This document shows positions 12,412-18,431 of a stretch of DNA of 64,000 nucleotides, piece after piece. The DNA comes from Solidesulfovibrio carbinolicus (lineage in GTDB: Bacteria > Desulfobacterota > Desulfovibrionia > Desulfovibrionales > Desulfovibrionaceae). The notes under the pieces were generated by a model, which worked only from the letters and a program-made list of their open reading frames with translations, had not been told where the DNA came from and did no database searches. The stretch covers positions 62,001 through 126,000 of the forward strand of contig NZ_CP026538.1 of NCBI RefSeq assembly GCF_004135975.1, written 5' to 3'. The translations under genes were made by a program, and so were the position numbers. The stretch's first letter is position 1. Every line of letters begins with the position of its first letter.

Positions 12412-13353
12412 ATGAACTGGCCCCACAAGGATCTTCTCGACGTCTCGCAACTCTCCCGGGAAGACGTGGACGTGGTCATGCGCACCGCCGCCTCCTTCCG
12501 GGAAATAAACGCCCGACCCGTCAAGAAAGTGCCCACCCTCAAAGGCAAAAGCGTCGTGCTGTTTTTCGCCGAGCCCAGCACCCGCACCAAGACGTCCTTC
12601 GACATCGCCGGCAAACGCCTCTCGGCCGACACCTTCGGCCTGGCCAAGTCTGGCAGTTCCTTGCAAAAGGGCGAGACCCTCAAGGATACCGTGCTCACGC
12701 TCCAGGCCATGAACCCCGACGCCATCGTCATGCGCCACGCCAGCTCCGGCGCGGCCGATTTCGTGGCCCGGCGGGTGTCCTGCGCCGTCATCAACGCCGG
12801 CGACGGCTGGCACGCCCATCCTACCCAGGCCCTGCTTGATCTGTTCACTCTGCGCGAAGTCTGGGGCGACGATCTTGTCGGCAAGACCGTGACCATCCTT
12901 GGCGACGTGGCCCATTCCCGGGTCGCCCGGTCCAATATTCGCCTGCTCACCATGCTCGGCGTCACCGTGCGCCTGTGCGCCCCGCGCACCCTGCTCCCCA
13001 AGGACGCCCGGGCCCTGGGAGCCAAGGTCTTTCACGAGCTGGAACCGGCCCTGGAAAACGCCGACGCCGTTATGTGCCTGCGCCTGCAGCTCGAACGCCA
13101 GGAAGCCGGGCTTTTGCCCGATCTGCGCGAATACGCCCGCCGCTTTTGCCTGACCAAGGCGCGGCTGAAAAACGCCGCCCCGGACGTCAAGGTGCTCCAC
13201 CCCGGCCCCATCAACCGGGGCGTGGAAATCGCCTCGGACCTGGCCGACGCCGGCAATTCGCTTATCCTGGACCAGGTGGCCTCGGGCGTGGCCGTGCGCA
13301 TGGCGATTTTGTATCTCCACATCACCCGCAAGGAAAAAGGGGAAACCGCATGA
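12412..13353 (+). CDS. pyrB: Aspartate carbamoyltransferase catalytic subunit
   Basis: A 313-residue enzyme of the second step of pyrimidine synthesis, joining carbamoyl phosphate and aspartate. STRTKTSF at residues 56-63 is the carbamoyl-phosphate loop. The HPTQALLD segment, [12 protein letters not shown] and [11 protein letters not shown] are also family hallmarks. The ATG at 12412 is preceded by GAGGA at 12401-12405; frames extending upstream have no ribosome binding site. The stop overlaps the ATG of pyrC by four bases. No regulatory subunit gene (pyrI) is present, consistent with the bacterial PyrB-PyrC type of complex. Confidence 0.96.
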
Positions 13354-14645
13354 CGCCGCCGGATCTCGTCGTCGCCGACGCCGCCGTCCCCGGCCGCGAC
13401 GGCCGCTGGACCCTGGTCTGCGCCGCCGGGCAGGTGCTGGAACTTGTGCCCCACGACCCGGCCGCCCGCTTCCCCGAAGCCCGGGTCATCGAGGCCAAGG
13501 GGCAGCTGCTCCTGCCGGCCATGACCGACGCCCACACCCATCTGCGCGAACCCGGCCAGGAATGGAAGGAAGACATCGCCTCGGGCCTGGCCGCCGCCGC
13601 CGGAGGCGGATTTTCCAACATCCTGTGCATGGCCAACACCGATCCGGTCAACGACAACGAATCGGTCACGCGCCTCATGCTGCGCCGGGCCAGCGATGCC
13701 TGGCCCCACGGCCCGCGCCTGTTCCCGGTCGGCGCGCTCACCATGGGCCTTGCCGGCAAACAGCTCGCGCCCATGGAAGAGCTGCTGGCCGCCGGCTGCG
13801 TGGCCTTTTCCAATGACGGCGAACCCGTGGCCGACACCGAGCTTTTCCGCCACGCCCTGGAATACGCCGCCGACCTCGCCCCGGTCATCGACCACTGCGA
13901 GGACCCGTACATGGCCAAGGGGGCCGGGGCCAACGAAGGCGTCATGAGCGCCCGCCTGGGCCTTCGCGGCCAGCCCGACGTGGCCGAGGCCCTGCAGGTC
14001 GCCCGGGACATTCTTTTGGCCGAATACTTAAACGCACCGGTGCACCTGGCCCACGTCAGCTGCCGCCGGGCCGTGGAACTCATCGCCGACGCCAAGCGCC
14101 GGGGCGCGCCGGTCACGGCCGAAACCTGCCCGCACTACCTGACCATGACCGACGCGGCGCTTTTCGGCTACGACACCATGGCCAAGGTCAATCCGCCGCT
14201 TCGCACCGACGACGACCGCCTGGCGCTGATTCAGGCCCTGCGCGAAGGCGTCATCGACATCCTGGCCACCGACCACGCCCCCCACGCCGCCCACGAAAAG
14301 GAAACCCCCTTCGAGGACGCCAAAAACGGCATCACCGGCCTGGACACGGCCCTGGGCAGCCTGTGGGAACTGGTGCGGCTGGGACAGCTGACCGCCGAAG
14401 ATATCGCCCAGCGCTTCGCCTGGCGGCCGGCCGAAATCTTCAAGCTCCCCCACTGCCGCTTCGCCCCGGGCGATCCGGCCGATTTCTGCCTCTTCGACCC
14501 GGAACAATCCTGGGTCGTCACCCCCGAAACCCTGCGCTCCAAGGGCAAGAACACGCCGCTTCTGGGCCAGTCCCTCACCGGCCGCGTGACCCTGACCGCC
14601 GTGAACGGCCACGTGGTCTACGAACTCGCCCGCGCCGGAGCCTGA
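13350..14645 (+). CDS. pyrC: Dihydroorotase
   Basis: A 431-residue class I dihydroorotase that closes carbamoyl-aspartate to dihydroorotate. Metal ligands are visible in [10 protein letters not shown] (residues about 57-66), HLAHVS (about 231-236) and the catalytic Asp in ATDHAPH (about 307-313). Other conserved parts are MANTDP and the C-terminal PADFCLFDP of the composite beta domain. The start ATG overlaps the pyrB stop, giving translational coupling. The family and the pathway context agree fully. Confidence 0.96.
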
Positions 14646-14680
14646 GACACGCATCAATCGCCGCACCCGGAGGTCTTCCC

Positions 14681-16003
14681 ATGGCGCAACCCTTCAAGGA
14701 CGCCACCGCCATCTGCAAAACCATCATGCGAAACGGCTACGACGCCTACGTCATCAACGCCGTTTTGCAGGAAAAAGCCCTGGATGCCGCCGCGCCGGAA
14801 CTCGACGTGGCCACCGACGCCCCCCTGGCCGAAATCCAGAAGCTCTTCCCCCAGTCCGAAGCCTGCGCCGAGGACGGGGCCTTTGCCCGCCTCCAAAGCG
14901 GCGACACCACGCTCTACCTCTACCCGGCCGACACCGCCGACGCCTCCCACCCCGAGGAGTCCGTGGCCCGGCTCACCAGCCGGCTCATCGCCCGGCTGAC
15001 CGCCAAGGGGCTGCTGCCGCCCCATCAGGCCTGCCCCTACGTGCCGCATCAGGTCGAGGACCACGACGGCTTCGCCGACCTCTCCAGCGGCGAAGTGCGC
15101 TTAAACGGCATCCCCGACGAAGCCATCCGCCAGAATTACCTGCGAGCCGTGCGGGCGCTGCGGTTTTCCGCCAACTACAACATCCCGGTGGAACCCAACA
15201 CCTTTATGGCCATCCTGCGGGCCTCGCGCCGCATCATGGACTACGTGTCGGTCAAAGACATCATGGACGAATGGCGCAAGGTCGAGGCCGAAAACATGGC
15301 CGACTTCGTGGAGCGCCTCTACGACACCATGATCCTGCACTGGTTTTTGCCCGAAGTGGCGACGCTGGCGCGCATCAAGATCACCTCCGACGACGGCGTC
15401 GAATACACGCTCTTCGAACAAACCCTGGCCGTCATGCGCCACTACCCCGAGGAACTGCCCTACGACTGGTACGGCACCCTGGCCTGCCTGTTCCACGATG
15501 TGGGCAAGCTCCACACCGCCCAGTACGCCGGCGGCGACCTCCACTTCTACCAGCACCACCAGGTCGGGGCCAAGGTCACCCGCAAAATCCTCTCGCGGCT
15601 GGGCTTCCCGCCGGACGAGACCGACCTCGTGTGCAACCTCGTGCGCGGCCACATGCACTTCCACTTCATGCTCACCGACCGGGGCATCCGCCGCTTCCGC
15701 GCCCTGGACCAGTACCCGCGCCTGATCGAAATGGCCCGGGCCGACATCAAGTCCGTGGGCGGCACCTACAAGGAATTCAACCACAACATGAAAATGCTCG
15801 AGCGTACCGAAACGCCCGAGGAAATGCTCGAACCGCTGCTCAATGGCGCGCAGATCATGCAACTGCTCTCCCTCAAGCCCGGACCGGCCGTGGGACTCAT
15901 CCGCGACGCGCTGCTCAAGGCCCAGATCAGCGGCGACGTCGCCAGCCGCGAAGACGCCGAACGCTTCGTGCGCGCCTACTGGGACAAGCAAGGACTGCAT
16001 TAG
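14681..16003 (+). CDS. CCA-adding-enzyme-like HD protein with degenerate nucleotidyltransferase motif
   Basis: A 440-residue relative of tRNA nucleotidyltransferases. The stretch NGYDAYVINAV at 18-28 aligns with the usual YxVGGxVRD start, but the two glycines, the Arg and the Asp are gone. The metal-binding D-x-D becomes Glu40-Leu41-Asp42 (ELDVATDAPL). The head and neck parts are kept, including LRAVRALRFSA near 154-163. A C-terminal HD domain has FHDVGKLH at 271-278 and further His residues (YQHHQ near 290, RGHMHFHF). The likely activity is HD phosphohydrolase or RNA binding, with CCA synthesis lost; this is inference. It starts 35 bases after pyrC with GGAGG at 14670 and is followed by strong hairpins. 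Other members of the family keep about 410-450 residues. Confidence 0.75.
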   Translation: MAQPFKDATAICKTIMRNGYDAYVINAVLQEKALDAAAPELDVATDAPLAEIQKLFPQSEACAEDGAFARLQSGDTTLYLYPADTADASHPEESVARLTSRLIARLTAKGLLPPHQACPYVPHQVEDHDGFADLSSGEVRLNGIPDEAIRQNYLRAVRALRFSANYNIPVEPNTFMAILRASRRIMDYVSVKDIMDEWRKVEAENMADFVERLYDTMILHWFLPEVATLARIKITSDDGVEYTLFEQTLAVMRHYPEELPYDWYGTLACLFHDVGKLHTAQYAGGDLHFYQHHQVGAKVTRKILSRLGFPPDETDLVCNLVRGHMHFHFMLTDRGIRRFRALDQYPRLIEMARADIKSVGGTYKEFNHNMKMLERTETPEEMLEPLLNGAQIMQLLSLKPGPAVGLIRDALLKAQISGDVASREDAERFVRAYWDKQGLH

Positions 16004-16017
16004 CAGAGAGCGAAGAG

Positions 16018-16070
16018 AATCGGGGCGCTGCCCCGAGCCCCGCCGGGGGGCTAAGCCCCCCGGCCCCTTT
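16018..16070 (+). repeat. GC hairpin repeat at a gene end (copy 1)
   Basis: ATCGGGGC-GCTGCCCCGAG and the following CCGGGGGGC-TAA-GCCCCCCGG stem form nested hairpins just past the HD gene. The reverse complement of 16362-16427 has the same order of elements. Confidence 0.6.
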
Positions 16071-16073
16071 CCT

Positions 16074-16122
16074 GGGAGGGCGATTTTCCCGGCGGGAAGC
16101 CCGCCGGGAAAATCGCCCTCCC
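16074..16122. repeat. Perfect 23-base inverted repeat with three-base loop
   Basis: Arms 16074-16096 and 16100-16122 are exact complements around AAG. The arms begin GGGAGGGCGATTTTCCCGG. No T-run follows on either strand: A-residues follow on the plus strand. It is therefore not a standard intrinsic terminator. Confidence 0.85.
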
Positions 16123-16361
16123 AAAAAATGATTCCGAAGCCCGGCATATCTCTTCCCAGGATTGCCTTTCCGGCTTTTGCCTTTTAATGCGGCGCTTCGC
16201 CGCTGGCGCACCTTGGGGCCGGAATCGCTCCGGGGCGGCGCGGGCCGCGCAAGCGGCCACGCGTCGCCCCGGACGATTCCGGCCCCAACGACGGGCATCC
16301 GCAGCCGACCTCTGCCTCGCTTCGTCCGGCCGACCGTCCGCGCCCCCGTCCATCGACCCAT

Positions 16362-16523: not shown

Positions 16524-17579
16524 ATGACCAATCTCATCGACCTGACGTTTCACGAACTGGAGTCCCTCATTGTCAGCCTGGGCGAGCCGCCGTACCGGGC
16601 CAGGCAGGTCTGGCAGTGGCTGTGGCAGAAGCGGTGCCGCGAGATCGCGGGGATGACGGACGTGTCCAAGGCGTTGCGCGCCCGGCTGGAGGAGGTGGCG
16701 GCAATTCGGTGGCCGGTGGTGGAAATGGTGCGGGAGAGCCGTGACGGCACGGTGAAGTTTTTGTTGGCGCTGGGGGACGGCGAGCGGGTGGAGTGCGTGT
16801 TGATCCCGGAGAAGGACCATTACACGGCCTGTTTGTCGACGCAGGTGGGTTGCGCCATGGGCTGCGGTTTTTGCGCCACCGGGATGTTGGGGTTTCGGCG
16901 CAACATGACGCCTGGGGAGATGCTGGGGCAGGTGTTGGTGGGCCGGCAGCATCTGGCGGACAAGGGCGTGGAGCTGGGGCTGCGCAATCTGGTGTTCATG
17001 GGCATGGGCGAGCCGCTGCTCAATTACGACAATTTGCTGCAGACCTTGGAGGCGCTCCATCATCCCCAGGGTTTGGATTTTTCGGGCCGGCGCATCACGG
17101 TGTCCACGGCTGGCGTGGCCCGGCATTTGTTGGATTTGGGGCGCACGGGCTTGTGTTCGCTGGCAATTTCGCTGCATGCGCCGACCCAGGCCCAGCGGGA
17201 GCGGATCATGCCCGGGGCGGCCAGGTTGGAATTGGACAAGCTCATGGATTTGCTGGCGCAGTATCCGCTCAAGCCTCGGGAGCGGCTGACGTTCGAGTAT
17301 TTGTTGCTGGCGGGGGTCAATGACGCCGACGCCGACGCCCGGGAGCTGGTGCGGCTGCTCTCGCGGGTGAAGGCCAAGGTGAATCTGATCGTGTTCAACG
17401 CCACGCCGGGGTTGCCGTATGCGCCGCCGGACGAAGCCAGGGTGTTGGCGTTTCAGGATATTTTGAAGAGCAAGGGGCTGACGGCGACGCTGCGCAAGAG
17501 CAAAGGCGCGGATATCGCGGCGGCCTGCGGGCAGTTGCGGGCGGAGTGCGACGGTGAGGGTGAGGGAAAGACAGGATAA
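16524..17579 (+). CDS. rlmN: Dual-specificity RNA methyltransferase RlmN
   Basis: A 351-residue radical SAM enzyme that methylates C2 of A2503 in 23S rRNA and of A37 in some tRNAs. The cluster-binding motif is Cys110-x3-Cys114-x2-Cys117 (GCAMGCGFCATG). Also visible are the N-terminal RNA-binding part (PYRARQVWQWLW), FMGMGEPLLNYDN, SLHAPTQAQRERIMP and the C-terminal region around ATLRKSKGADIAAACGQL, which carries the second catalytic Cys. The length is typical. It appears monocistronic, ending at a GC hairpin repeat. Confidence 0.96.
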   Translation: MTNLIDLTFHELESLIVSLGEPPYRARQVWQWLWQKRCREIAGMTDVSKALRARLEEVAAIRWPVVEMVRESRDGTVKFLLALGDGERVECVLIPEKDHYTACLSTQVGCAMGCGFCATGMLGFRRNMTPGEMLGQVLVGRQHLADKGVELGLRNLVFMGMGEPLLNYDNLLQTLEALHHPQGLDFSGRRITVSTAGVARHLLDLGRTGLCSLAISLHAPTQAQRERIMPGAARLELDKLMDLLAQYPLKPRERLTFEYLLLAGVNDADADARELVRLLSRVKAKVNLIVFNATPGLPYAPPDEARVLAFQDILKSKGLTATLRKSKGADIAAACGQLRAECDGEGEGKTG

Positions 17580-17739: not shown

Positions 17740-18003
17740 ATGGAAACGACGCTGGACGAACAAGGGCGCGTGGTCATTCCCCAGGATGTGCTCAATGACT
17801 TGGGGCTTGCCCCCGGAGCGCGCCTGATCGTCGAAGAACGGGACTGCACCATTGTCATTCGCGGCGCTGACGGCGACAACGGGCTTGTCGAAGAAGATGG
17901 CGTACTGCTTTTTGGCGGCGAAACCATCGGTGCGGTAGATGATCTGGTTGAGCGGGTGCGAAGCGACCGCGTTCGGGACATCGCTGGTCTTTCAAAACGA
18001 TGA
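17740..18003 (+). CDS. vapB: AbrB/SpoVT-type antitoxin (VapB)
   Basis: An 87-residue protein with an N-terminal AbrB swapped-hairpin domain: LDEQGRVVIPQDVLNDLGL at residues 5-23, then PGARLIVEE. The remainder is acidic and probably forms the toxin-binding tail. The ATG overlaps nothing upstream, and its stop overlaps the toxin ATG by four bases. It should neutralise the PIN toxin and autoregulate the operon. Gene symbol by context and family. Confidence 0.85.
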   Translation: METTLDEQGRVVIPQDVLNDLGLAPGARLIVEERDCTIVIRGADGDNGLVEEDGVLLFGGETIGAVDDLVERVRSDRVRDIAGLSKR

Positions 18004-18431
18004 AGGCATTTTTCGACACCTCGGTGCTTGTCGCCGCCCTGGTGAAGAGCCATCCCATGCATCCCAGAGCGTTTCCCTGGTATTTGAAAAGCCGGCGGTC
18101 CGAATGCGAAATGGTTGTTGCGGCGCATGGCTTGGCTGAAACCTATGCTTGCCTGACAACGTACCCCTCACGTCCCAGAATTTCTCCCGTTGCGGCCATG
18201 ACGTTGCTTCGGGAAAGCATTGTCCGGGCGGGAACGGTTGTGTCCCTTGACGGACGCGATTATCTGGAAGCCCTGGACAGGGTTGCCGACAAGGGCCGGT
18301 GCGGCGGCAGCGTCTACGATGCCTTGCACGTGATTGCGGCCGAAAAAAGCGGAGTGGACCTCGTGCTTTCCTTCAATCGAAAGCATTTTGAACCGCTTTT
18401 GCGACCGGGCCAGACGTTTATCGAACCCTGA
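18000..18431 (+). CDS. vapC: PIN-domain ribonuclease toxin (VapC)
   Basis: A 143-residue PIN protein. The acidic catalytic set is visible: Asp6 in FFDTSVLVAA, Glu47 in LAETYACL, Asp107 in VYDALHVIAA and Asp120 before LVLSFNRKHF. These coordinate Mg2+ for cleavage of RNA, typically tRNA or rRNA in this family. Its start overlaps the antitoxin stop, the standard toxin-antitoxin layout. Nothing is truncated. Confidence 0.88.
   Translation: MKAFFDTSVLVAALVKSHPMHPRAFPWYLKSRRSECEMVVAAHGLAETYACLTTYPSRPRISPVAAMTLLRESIVRAGTVVSLDGRDYLEALDRVADKGRCGGSVYDALHVIAAEKSGVDLVLSFNRKHFEPLLRPGQTFIEP

Follow-up and report, generated by a model that had tools for sequence, protein, structure and literature searches.

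Few RNA enzymes are as highly conserved as the tRNA nucleotidyltransferases. The best sequence and fold matches of the protein described here are the pdb entries 3wfo–3wfs, named 'Poly A polymerase' and 'tRNA processing enzyme', which we take to be the CC-adding enzyme AaS of Aquifex aeolicus. According to sections of PMC3925840, AaS adds C74 and C75 with an intact head, the body and tail of class II relatives recognise the tRNA, and the A-adding enzyme of A. aeolicus uses Asp31, Asp33 and Glu74. The division of labour between CC and A addition in bacteria is also treated in a part of PMC7014341. Some bacterial CCA-adding enzymes bear an HD domain, such as the HDIG domain of Mycobacterium tuberculosis Rv3907c (described in a section of PMC10673834). 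Searches of open-access papers found no description of a dead CCA-enzyme paralog in Desulfovibrio.

The window, a stretch of 64,000 nucleotides of the Solidesulfovibrio carbinolicus genome, contains an open reading frame for a protein of 440 residues (14681–16003, + strand, with ATG at 14681 and TAG ending at 16003). A GGAGG sequence at 14669–14673 lies ahead of the start. The original prediction described a full-length gene that follows pyrC, and this is correct: the frame is open throughout and begins 35 nt from the stop of pyrC (dihydroorotase, 13350–14645, + strand, named from the original prediction and our reading of the translation). Pfam, NCBIfam, solved-structure and model matches mark the frame as a pseudo-nucleotidyltransferase gene. 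The encoded protein is almost certainly a conserved paralog of class II CCA-adding enzymes that is dead as a nucleotidyltransferase.

By model and fold matches, the protein is built like a class II tRNA nucleotidyltransferase, with a head, a neck, an HD domain and a tail. In this report the domain borders are our own, with the head at approximately residues 1–125, the neck at 126–230, the HD domain or body at 231–365 and the tail at 366–440. The Pfam head domain PolyA_pol has no match in the protein even at an E-value of 1. The Pfam HD domain (PF01966) is matched with an E-value of 1e-7 (32.7 bits, cut-off 22), and the Pfam RNA-binding neck and tail domains give weak matches below their cut-offs (E-values of 0.073 and 0.067). 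The top NCBIfam model is that of the actinobacterial-type CCA enzyme (TIGR02692, residues 10–434, E-value 2.9e-35), but its score of 121.8 bits is below the curated cut-off of 438.8. The protein shares the domain order of the HD-bearing CCA enzymes (TIGR02692, Rv3907c) and can be aligned with them over nearly its whole length. It differs from them in the absence of the polymerase motifs and, within the genus of the window, in the replacement of the first HD ligand. The nearest solved sequence is 3wfo (E-value 3.5e-30), which matches best over the HD domain and tail. Both proteins carry a PLLNG..IM..KPG..VG tail, which in the window protein belongs to a motif of residues 384–420 (EPLLNGAQIM...KPGPAVG...AQISGDV; 15830–15940, + strand). 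In contrast to AaS, the head motifs of the window protein are lost and residues 12–30 are rebuilt.

Matches to other families are confined to parts of the chain. PHROG 2244 (tRNA nucleotidyltransferase), found in a check for phage origin, matches residues 128–405 and not the head (E-value 2.3e-19). GlnD-type uridylyltransferases consist of a nucleotidyltransferase domain, an HD domain and two ACT domains. A GlnD-like protein was rejected, as the HD part (residues 267–345) alone matches and Pfam detects no ACT domain at E-values up to 1. A defence protein was rejected as well; PADLOC gave only weak Cas3-HD matches (E-values 0.0036–0.0079).

For the polymerase site, 110 orthologs were read, of which 99 are distinct, and all motif counts refer to these 99. 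It had been predicted from the window alone that GGxVRD is replaced and that DxD is changed to E-L-D. The alignment agrees, with N26-A-V-L-Q-E31 at the GGxVRD place and E40-L41-D42 (14798–14806, + strand) at the catalytic DxD place. The losses extend to RRD, to the third carboxylate (T77) and to two residues of EDxxR, whose Glu and Asp are now Q151 and N152; R155 of this last motif is kept. No distinct ortholog has GG at 26–27 or Arg30, Asp31 is present in 6/99, and none of the 99 has an intact GGxVRD motif. DxD is found in 2/99 (D40 in 2, D42 in 86), the third carboxylate and RRD in none, and an acidic pair occupies positions 40 and 42 in 74/99. The Glu of EDxxR (151) is absent from all orthologs, the Asp position (152) holds Asp in 50 and Asn in 49, and the Arg position (155) holds Arg in 54, Leu in 43 and Lys in 2. 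These positions belong to a neck motif (residues 151–165, QNYLRAVRALRFSAN; 15131–15175, + strand) in which R161 and N165 are present in 99/99. Among nine canonical relatives, RRD and EDxxR are present in all, DxD in eight and ExD in one. The column of the third carboxylate is less certain because Glu is found there in only seven of the nine. Chance is excluded by the conservation of the loss, since GG is missing from every distinct ortholog. An active enzyme with a shifted motif was likewise ruled out, with GG, Arg30, RRD and the third acid each at 0/99.

At the former GGxVR place the orthologs share an order-specific N-terminal motif (residues 12–30, CKTIMRNGYDAYVINAVLQ; 14714–14770, + strand). 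Its pattern, C-K-x(3)-R-N-G...N-A-x-L-Q, is nearly invariant: R17 and G19 are present in 99/99, N18 in 98, K13 and L29 in 97, C12 in 95, and N26 and Q30 in 93. At 30 positions of the protein, at least 95% of the orthologs (weighted) have one residue that none of the nine canonical relatives has. These include N18, W198, F209, Y255, W263, G265, Q291, R347, N367, N369, K371 and R408. The PolyA_pol profile matches nine of the 86 members of the modelling alignment, which is the number of canonical rows, and the HD profile matches 80 of the 86.

An AlphaFold2 model from these 86 sequences has a mean pLDDT of 89 and a pTM of 0.72. The top solved fold matches are 3wfo–3wfs (Z 23.6, 4.4 Å, 269 residues in the range 124–436), followed by other class II enzymes. 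The superposition of the whole chain on solved enzymes is poor (in the best rows, Foldseek TM about 0.5 and r.m.s. deviations of 13–15 Å), which may reflect a domain movement or a changed arrangement. The nine canonical rows in this alignment were the reason for a second model of the head, built exclusively from 77 orthologs (pLDDT 73.6). The six top rows of this head are class II CCA enzymes at moderate Z (8.2 to 7.2). The further rows that we recognise are proteins of the nucleotidyltransferase fold. Among the 50 head rows are several NF45/NF90 (ILF2/ILF3) entries (Z 6.2–6.5). NF45 and NF90 are catalytically dead, serve as a dimerisation platform and are not known to carry HD or tail domains; they resemble the window protein in the fold of the head, but are eukaryotic and at most 12% identical to it. 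The HD part resembles the HD protein PhnZ (Z 12.6, 122 residues, 2.1 Å). This part alone is shared, however, and there is no evidence for oxygenase chemistry in the window protein. According to the models and the alignment, the predicted head keeps the nucleotidyltransferase fold and has lost the catalytic and NTP-binding motifs.

Of 199 genomes sampled from the order, which is Desulfovibrionales as judged by the named matches, 184 have the ortholog, and among the 180 near-complete ones it is found in 173. The weakest of these best matches has an E-value of 2.3e-105. The 46 named loci come from Solidesulfovibrio, Desulfovibrio, Pseudodesulfovibrio, Desulfomicrobium, Desulfonatronum, Desulfonatronospira, other Desulfovibrionales or broadly labelled MAGs. 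The gene has no match in G590, a near-complete genome from the genus of the window. Another genome (G139) carries two copies (L089 and C62:25215–26528), which share 54% and 52% identity with the window protein. In a sample of the phylum, 62 of 297 genomes match at an E-value of 1e-15, and 11 of these belong to the own family. The other 51 match with 24–35% identity (E-value 1.5e-39 at best), and the best nine of these 51 relatives, which were read, all carry GGxVRD. A profile of the ortholog head alone matches 27 of 395 phylum genomes, 17 of the own family (146–183 bits) and ten of other groups (20–39 bits). A dead head outside the class was rejected for the three strongest of these ten (G539, G533 and G399), which have GGAVRD, and for G253 and G479, which belong to the canonical set with GGxVRD; the remaining five (G283, G323, G363, G375 and G416) are weak matches of 20–21 bits. 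A search for the dead head in a class sample matched 269 of 297 genomes, including 223 of 242 near-complete ones, as counted by profile matches. One genome of this sample (G668) has an intact enzyme and, on another contig, a short piece of a possible ortholog.

Whole-gene dN/dS lies between 0.064 and 0.264 in 11 chosen pairs. In all 11 pairs the ratio of the head exceeds those of the other three parts (up to 0.46). For the HD part within the window's genus, five pairs give ratios of 0.10–0.22 and one close pair gives 0. Purifying selection maintains the neck, HD part and tail. In a tree built with 29 of the 99 orthologs, the 29 cluster together (100/100) on a branch of 1.85. The tree, which has several long rows and an unsettled bootstrap, singles out no intact group as the sister. 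The gene is evidently an old paralog that is nearly fixed in the order, and nucleotide polymerisation is not to be expected from its product.

The HD domain, which was predicted to be kept, is retained as a fold, but the first metal ligand of the window protein is Gln (Q247; codon at 15419–15421, + strand) in place of the His of the canonical relatives. This position is His in 83, Gln in 11 and Glu in 2 of the 99 orthologs. Gln or Glu is found in all 13 distinct orthologs that come from the window's genus or are at least 84% identical to the window protein (Q in 11, E in 2). The HD motif itself (H272-D273 of LFHDVGK; 15494–15499, + strand) has H272 in 92, D273 in 88 and K276 in all 99 orthologs. 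In the QHH sequence, H292, a usual HD ligand, and H293 (both at 15554–15559, + strand) are present in 94 and 96, and H293 is new to the ortholog family (0/9 canonical relatives). H324 (15650–15652, + strand) is present in 96/99, and D355, the last metal ligand (15743–15745, + strand), is Asp in 82/99. All six ligands are found in 63/99 orthologs, compared with 9/9 canonical relatives, and at least one is replaced in 36/99. In lineages other than the window's genus, H272-D273 (Leu-Asn in four) or D355 (mostly Asn) are replaced, and loci L101 and L103–L105 have most of the ligand set replaced. In weighted conservation among the 440 positions, H272 ranks 67th, H324 77th, H247 97th, H292 107th, D273 113th and D355 220th. 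Hence 66 positions outrank the best-conserved ligand, and many residues that are not part of the HD site are invariant. Given the replacements and these ranks, usual HD catalysis is an improbable reason for the retention of every ortholog, although the majority may possess it.

The original prediction assumed a true CCA enzyme elsewhere in the genome, and the search for a second cca-type gene revealed two further intact genes of the superfamily, whose exact activities (A, CC or CCA addition) are putative. The first (L001, C1:2416864 region) encodes a CBS-DHH-nucleotidyltransferase fusion of 927 residues, which matches the A-adding model over its length with 894 of 1440 bits and is thus below the cut-off. 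The second (L002) has a Cca part that starts with MKRYLVGGAVRD and reaches 218.5 of 451 bits with the E. coli-type Cca model, also below the cut-off. The genome has 52 tRNA matches. In 30 scanned loci, 29 distinct tRNA genes were found and CCA is encoded in all 29, which leaves work on tRNA ends at most a maintenance role; terminal addition in this genome would probably serve that purpose. All 34 order genomes tested, ten of them selected because they lack the ortholog, have a long open frame (597–1269 residues) with an almost complete PolyA_pol match. In several order genomes no PolyA_pol gene other than this long-frame gene was found. In seven ortholog-bearing genomes (G104, G119, G185, G186, G090, G139 and G013), the thresholds used gave one PolyA_pol match each and no E. 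coli-like Cca. With the query for E. coli-like Cca, 22 of 35 genomes give matches at an E-value of 1e-10; two of them, G001 and G062, do so weakly and contain another intact type. A strict exchange of the ortholog with Cca was not found with this query among the 35 genomes.

As the polymerising site is gone and the HD site is altered in many lineages, the protein is probably an RNA-binding or repair protein. We favour, at not quite an even chance, a mechanism in which the binding of RNA, presumably tRNA, is the conserved task and phosphohydrolysis takes place where the HD site is intact. The neck, body and tail would still grip the acceptor/T-arm half of tRNA or of a tRNA-like RNA, and the head would now serve as a binding or docking surface. 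An intact HD site, as in 63/99 orthologs, could remove 2',3'-cyclic or 3' phosphates from damaged RNA ends. Since several lineages, the window's genus included, have replaced HD ligands, binding would be the task conserved throughout, with phosphohydrolysis as a lineage-variable addition. The invariant neck and tail residues support such a binding role. The intact A-adding-type frame in 34/34 order genomes tested and the adjoining rlmN gene in 62/91 neighbourhoods count for it; the absence of rlmN in 29/91, the CCA encoded by all 29 tRNA genes read and the poor whole-chain superposition count against it. A more specific form is possible, yet rather doubtful: an order-specific RNA-binding pseudoenzyme of CCA-adding origin, in which R17-N18-G19 and the family-specific residues around the former HD site (QHH, W263, R347 and N367-x-N369-x-K371) provide a new site for a ligand or partner. 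It would act in tRNA quality control or, with rlmN adjoining, as an adaptor for RNA modification. Alternatively, Y255, W263, R347, N367, N369 and K371 could make up a new site for catalysis or for protein binding.

The original prediction proposed an HD phosphohydrolase acting on RNA ends or nucleotides. In this alternative the protein primarily hydrolyses phosphates at RNA 3' ends (2',3'-cyclic, 3' or 2') or on nucleotides and the dead head only positions the RNA. Most orthologs have the six HD ligands, and HD catalysis may therefore be the main function, with exceptions. The presence of H324, H292, H272 and K276 in 92 to 99 of the 99 orthologs and the purifying selection on the HD part, also within the window's genus, agree with this. 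Furthermore, the HD-bearing CCA enzyme of M. tuberculosis has an HD-dependent phosphatase activity that is absent in H298A, and Yakunin 2004 is cited for E. coli (both in sections of PMC10673834). The proposal is nevertheless weakened, because ligands are replaced in more than a third of the orthologs, the first His in 13/13 from the window's genus, while many non-HD residues are invariant. Ligands such as D355, D273, H247 and H272 rank low, and the canonical relatives, by contrast, keep all six. This alternative is therefore unlikely as the primary function, and of the original prediction it is the loss of the nucleotidyltransferase site that stands as real, old, order-wide and selected.

Pseudoenzymes are often paired with an active paralog, and the A-adding-type frame in every order genome tested would suit a subunit or regulator of that CBS-DHH-nucleotidyltransferase or of Cca that binds tRNA in trans. 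The frame is, however, also found where the ortholog was not (e.g. G102, G161, G169, G180 and G187), and in the S. carbinolicus genome the two genes lie a long way from this one, which makes this role quite improbable. It is very improbable that the protein is still a nucleotidyltransferase with an unusual active site around E40-x-D42. The acidic pair in 74/99 orthologs would fit such a site, but the third acid, GG, Arg30, RRD and Glu151 are all missing from every ortholog. The lost catalytic motifs could also indicate a pseudogene or a sequencing or assembly artefact in one genome. The chance of this is negligible: the losses are shared by 99/99 distinct orthologs with open frames, and a local pseudogene is ruled out by the order-wide orthologs and the purifying selection. 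A selected dead paralog with a new invariant motif in nearly the whole sulfate-reducer order points to an undescribed step of tRNA or RNA handling. The paralog also offers a clean test of the roles of neck, body, tail and HD domain without polymerisation. Annotation of the ortholog family as CCA or poly(A) enzymes by similarity would be wrong.

Of the distinct orthologs, 98 have a flank of 1 kb or more; pyrC is located no more than 400 nt upstream in 50 of these and further upstream in 7. The downstream neighbour in the window is rlmN (radical-SAM methyltransferase, 16524–17579, + strand; Pfam RlmN_N and Radical_SAM). It lies within 700 nt downstream in 62 of the 91 orthologs with at least 1.2 kb of flank, and was not found next door in the other 29. 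The counts for both genes are limited by flanks of only 1.5 kb at many loci. Of 21 wider neighbourhoods, 7 continue with hisI and hisG.

Between the pseudo-nucleotidyltransferase gene and rlmN, positions 16073–16123 form a perfect hairpin of 24 pairs with a loop of three bases, followed by an A-run on the + strand. The core of this hairpin occurs at a single place in the genome at up to 3 mismatches. The surrounding stretch (16030–16140) has a folding energy of −78.7 kcal/mol (z −7.95). Between rlmN and hisI (17740–18431), a PIN-domain protein is preceded by a short overlapping ORF. This short ORF has the look of an AbrB-type antitoxin, without a Pfam match, and the pair is a possible toxin-antitoxin system.
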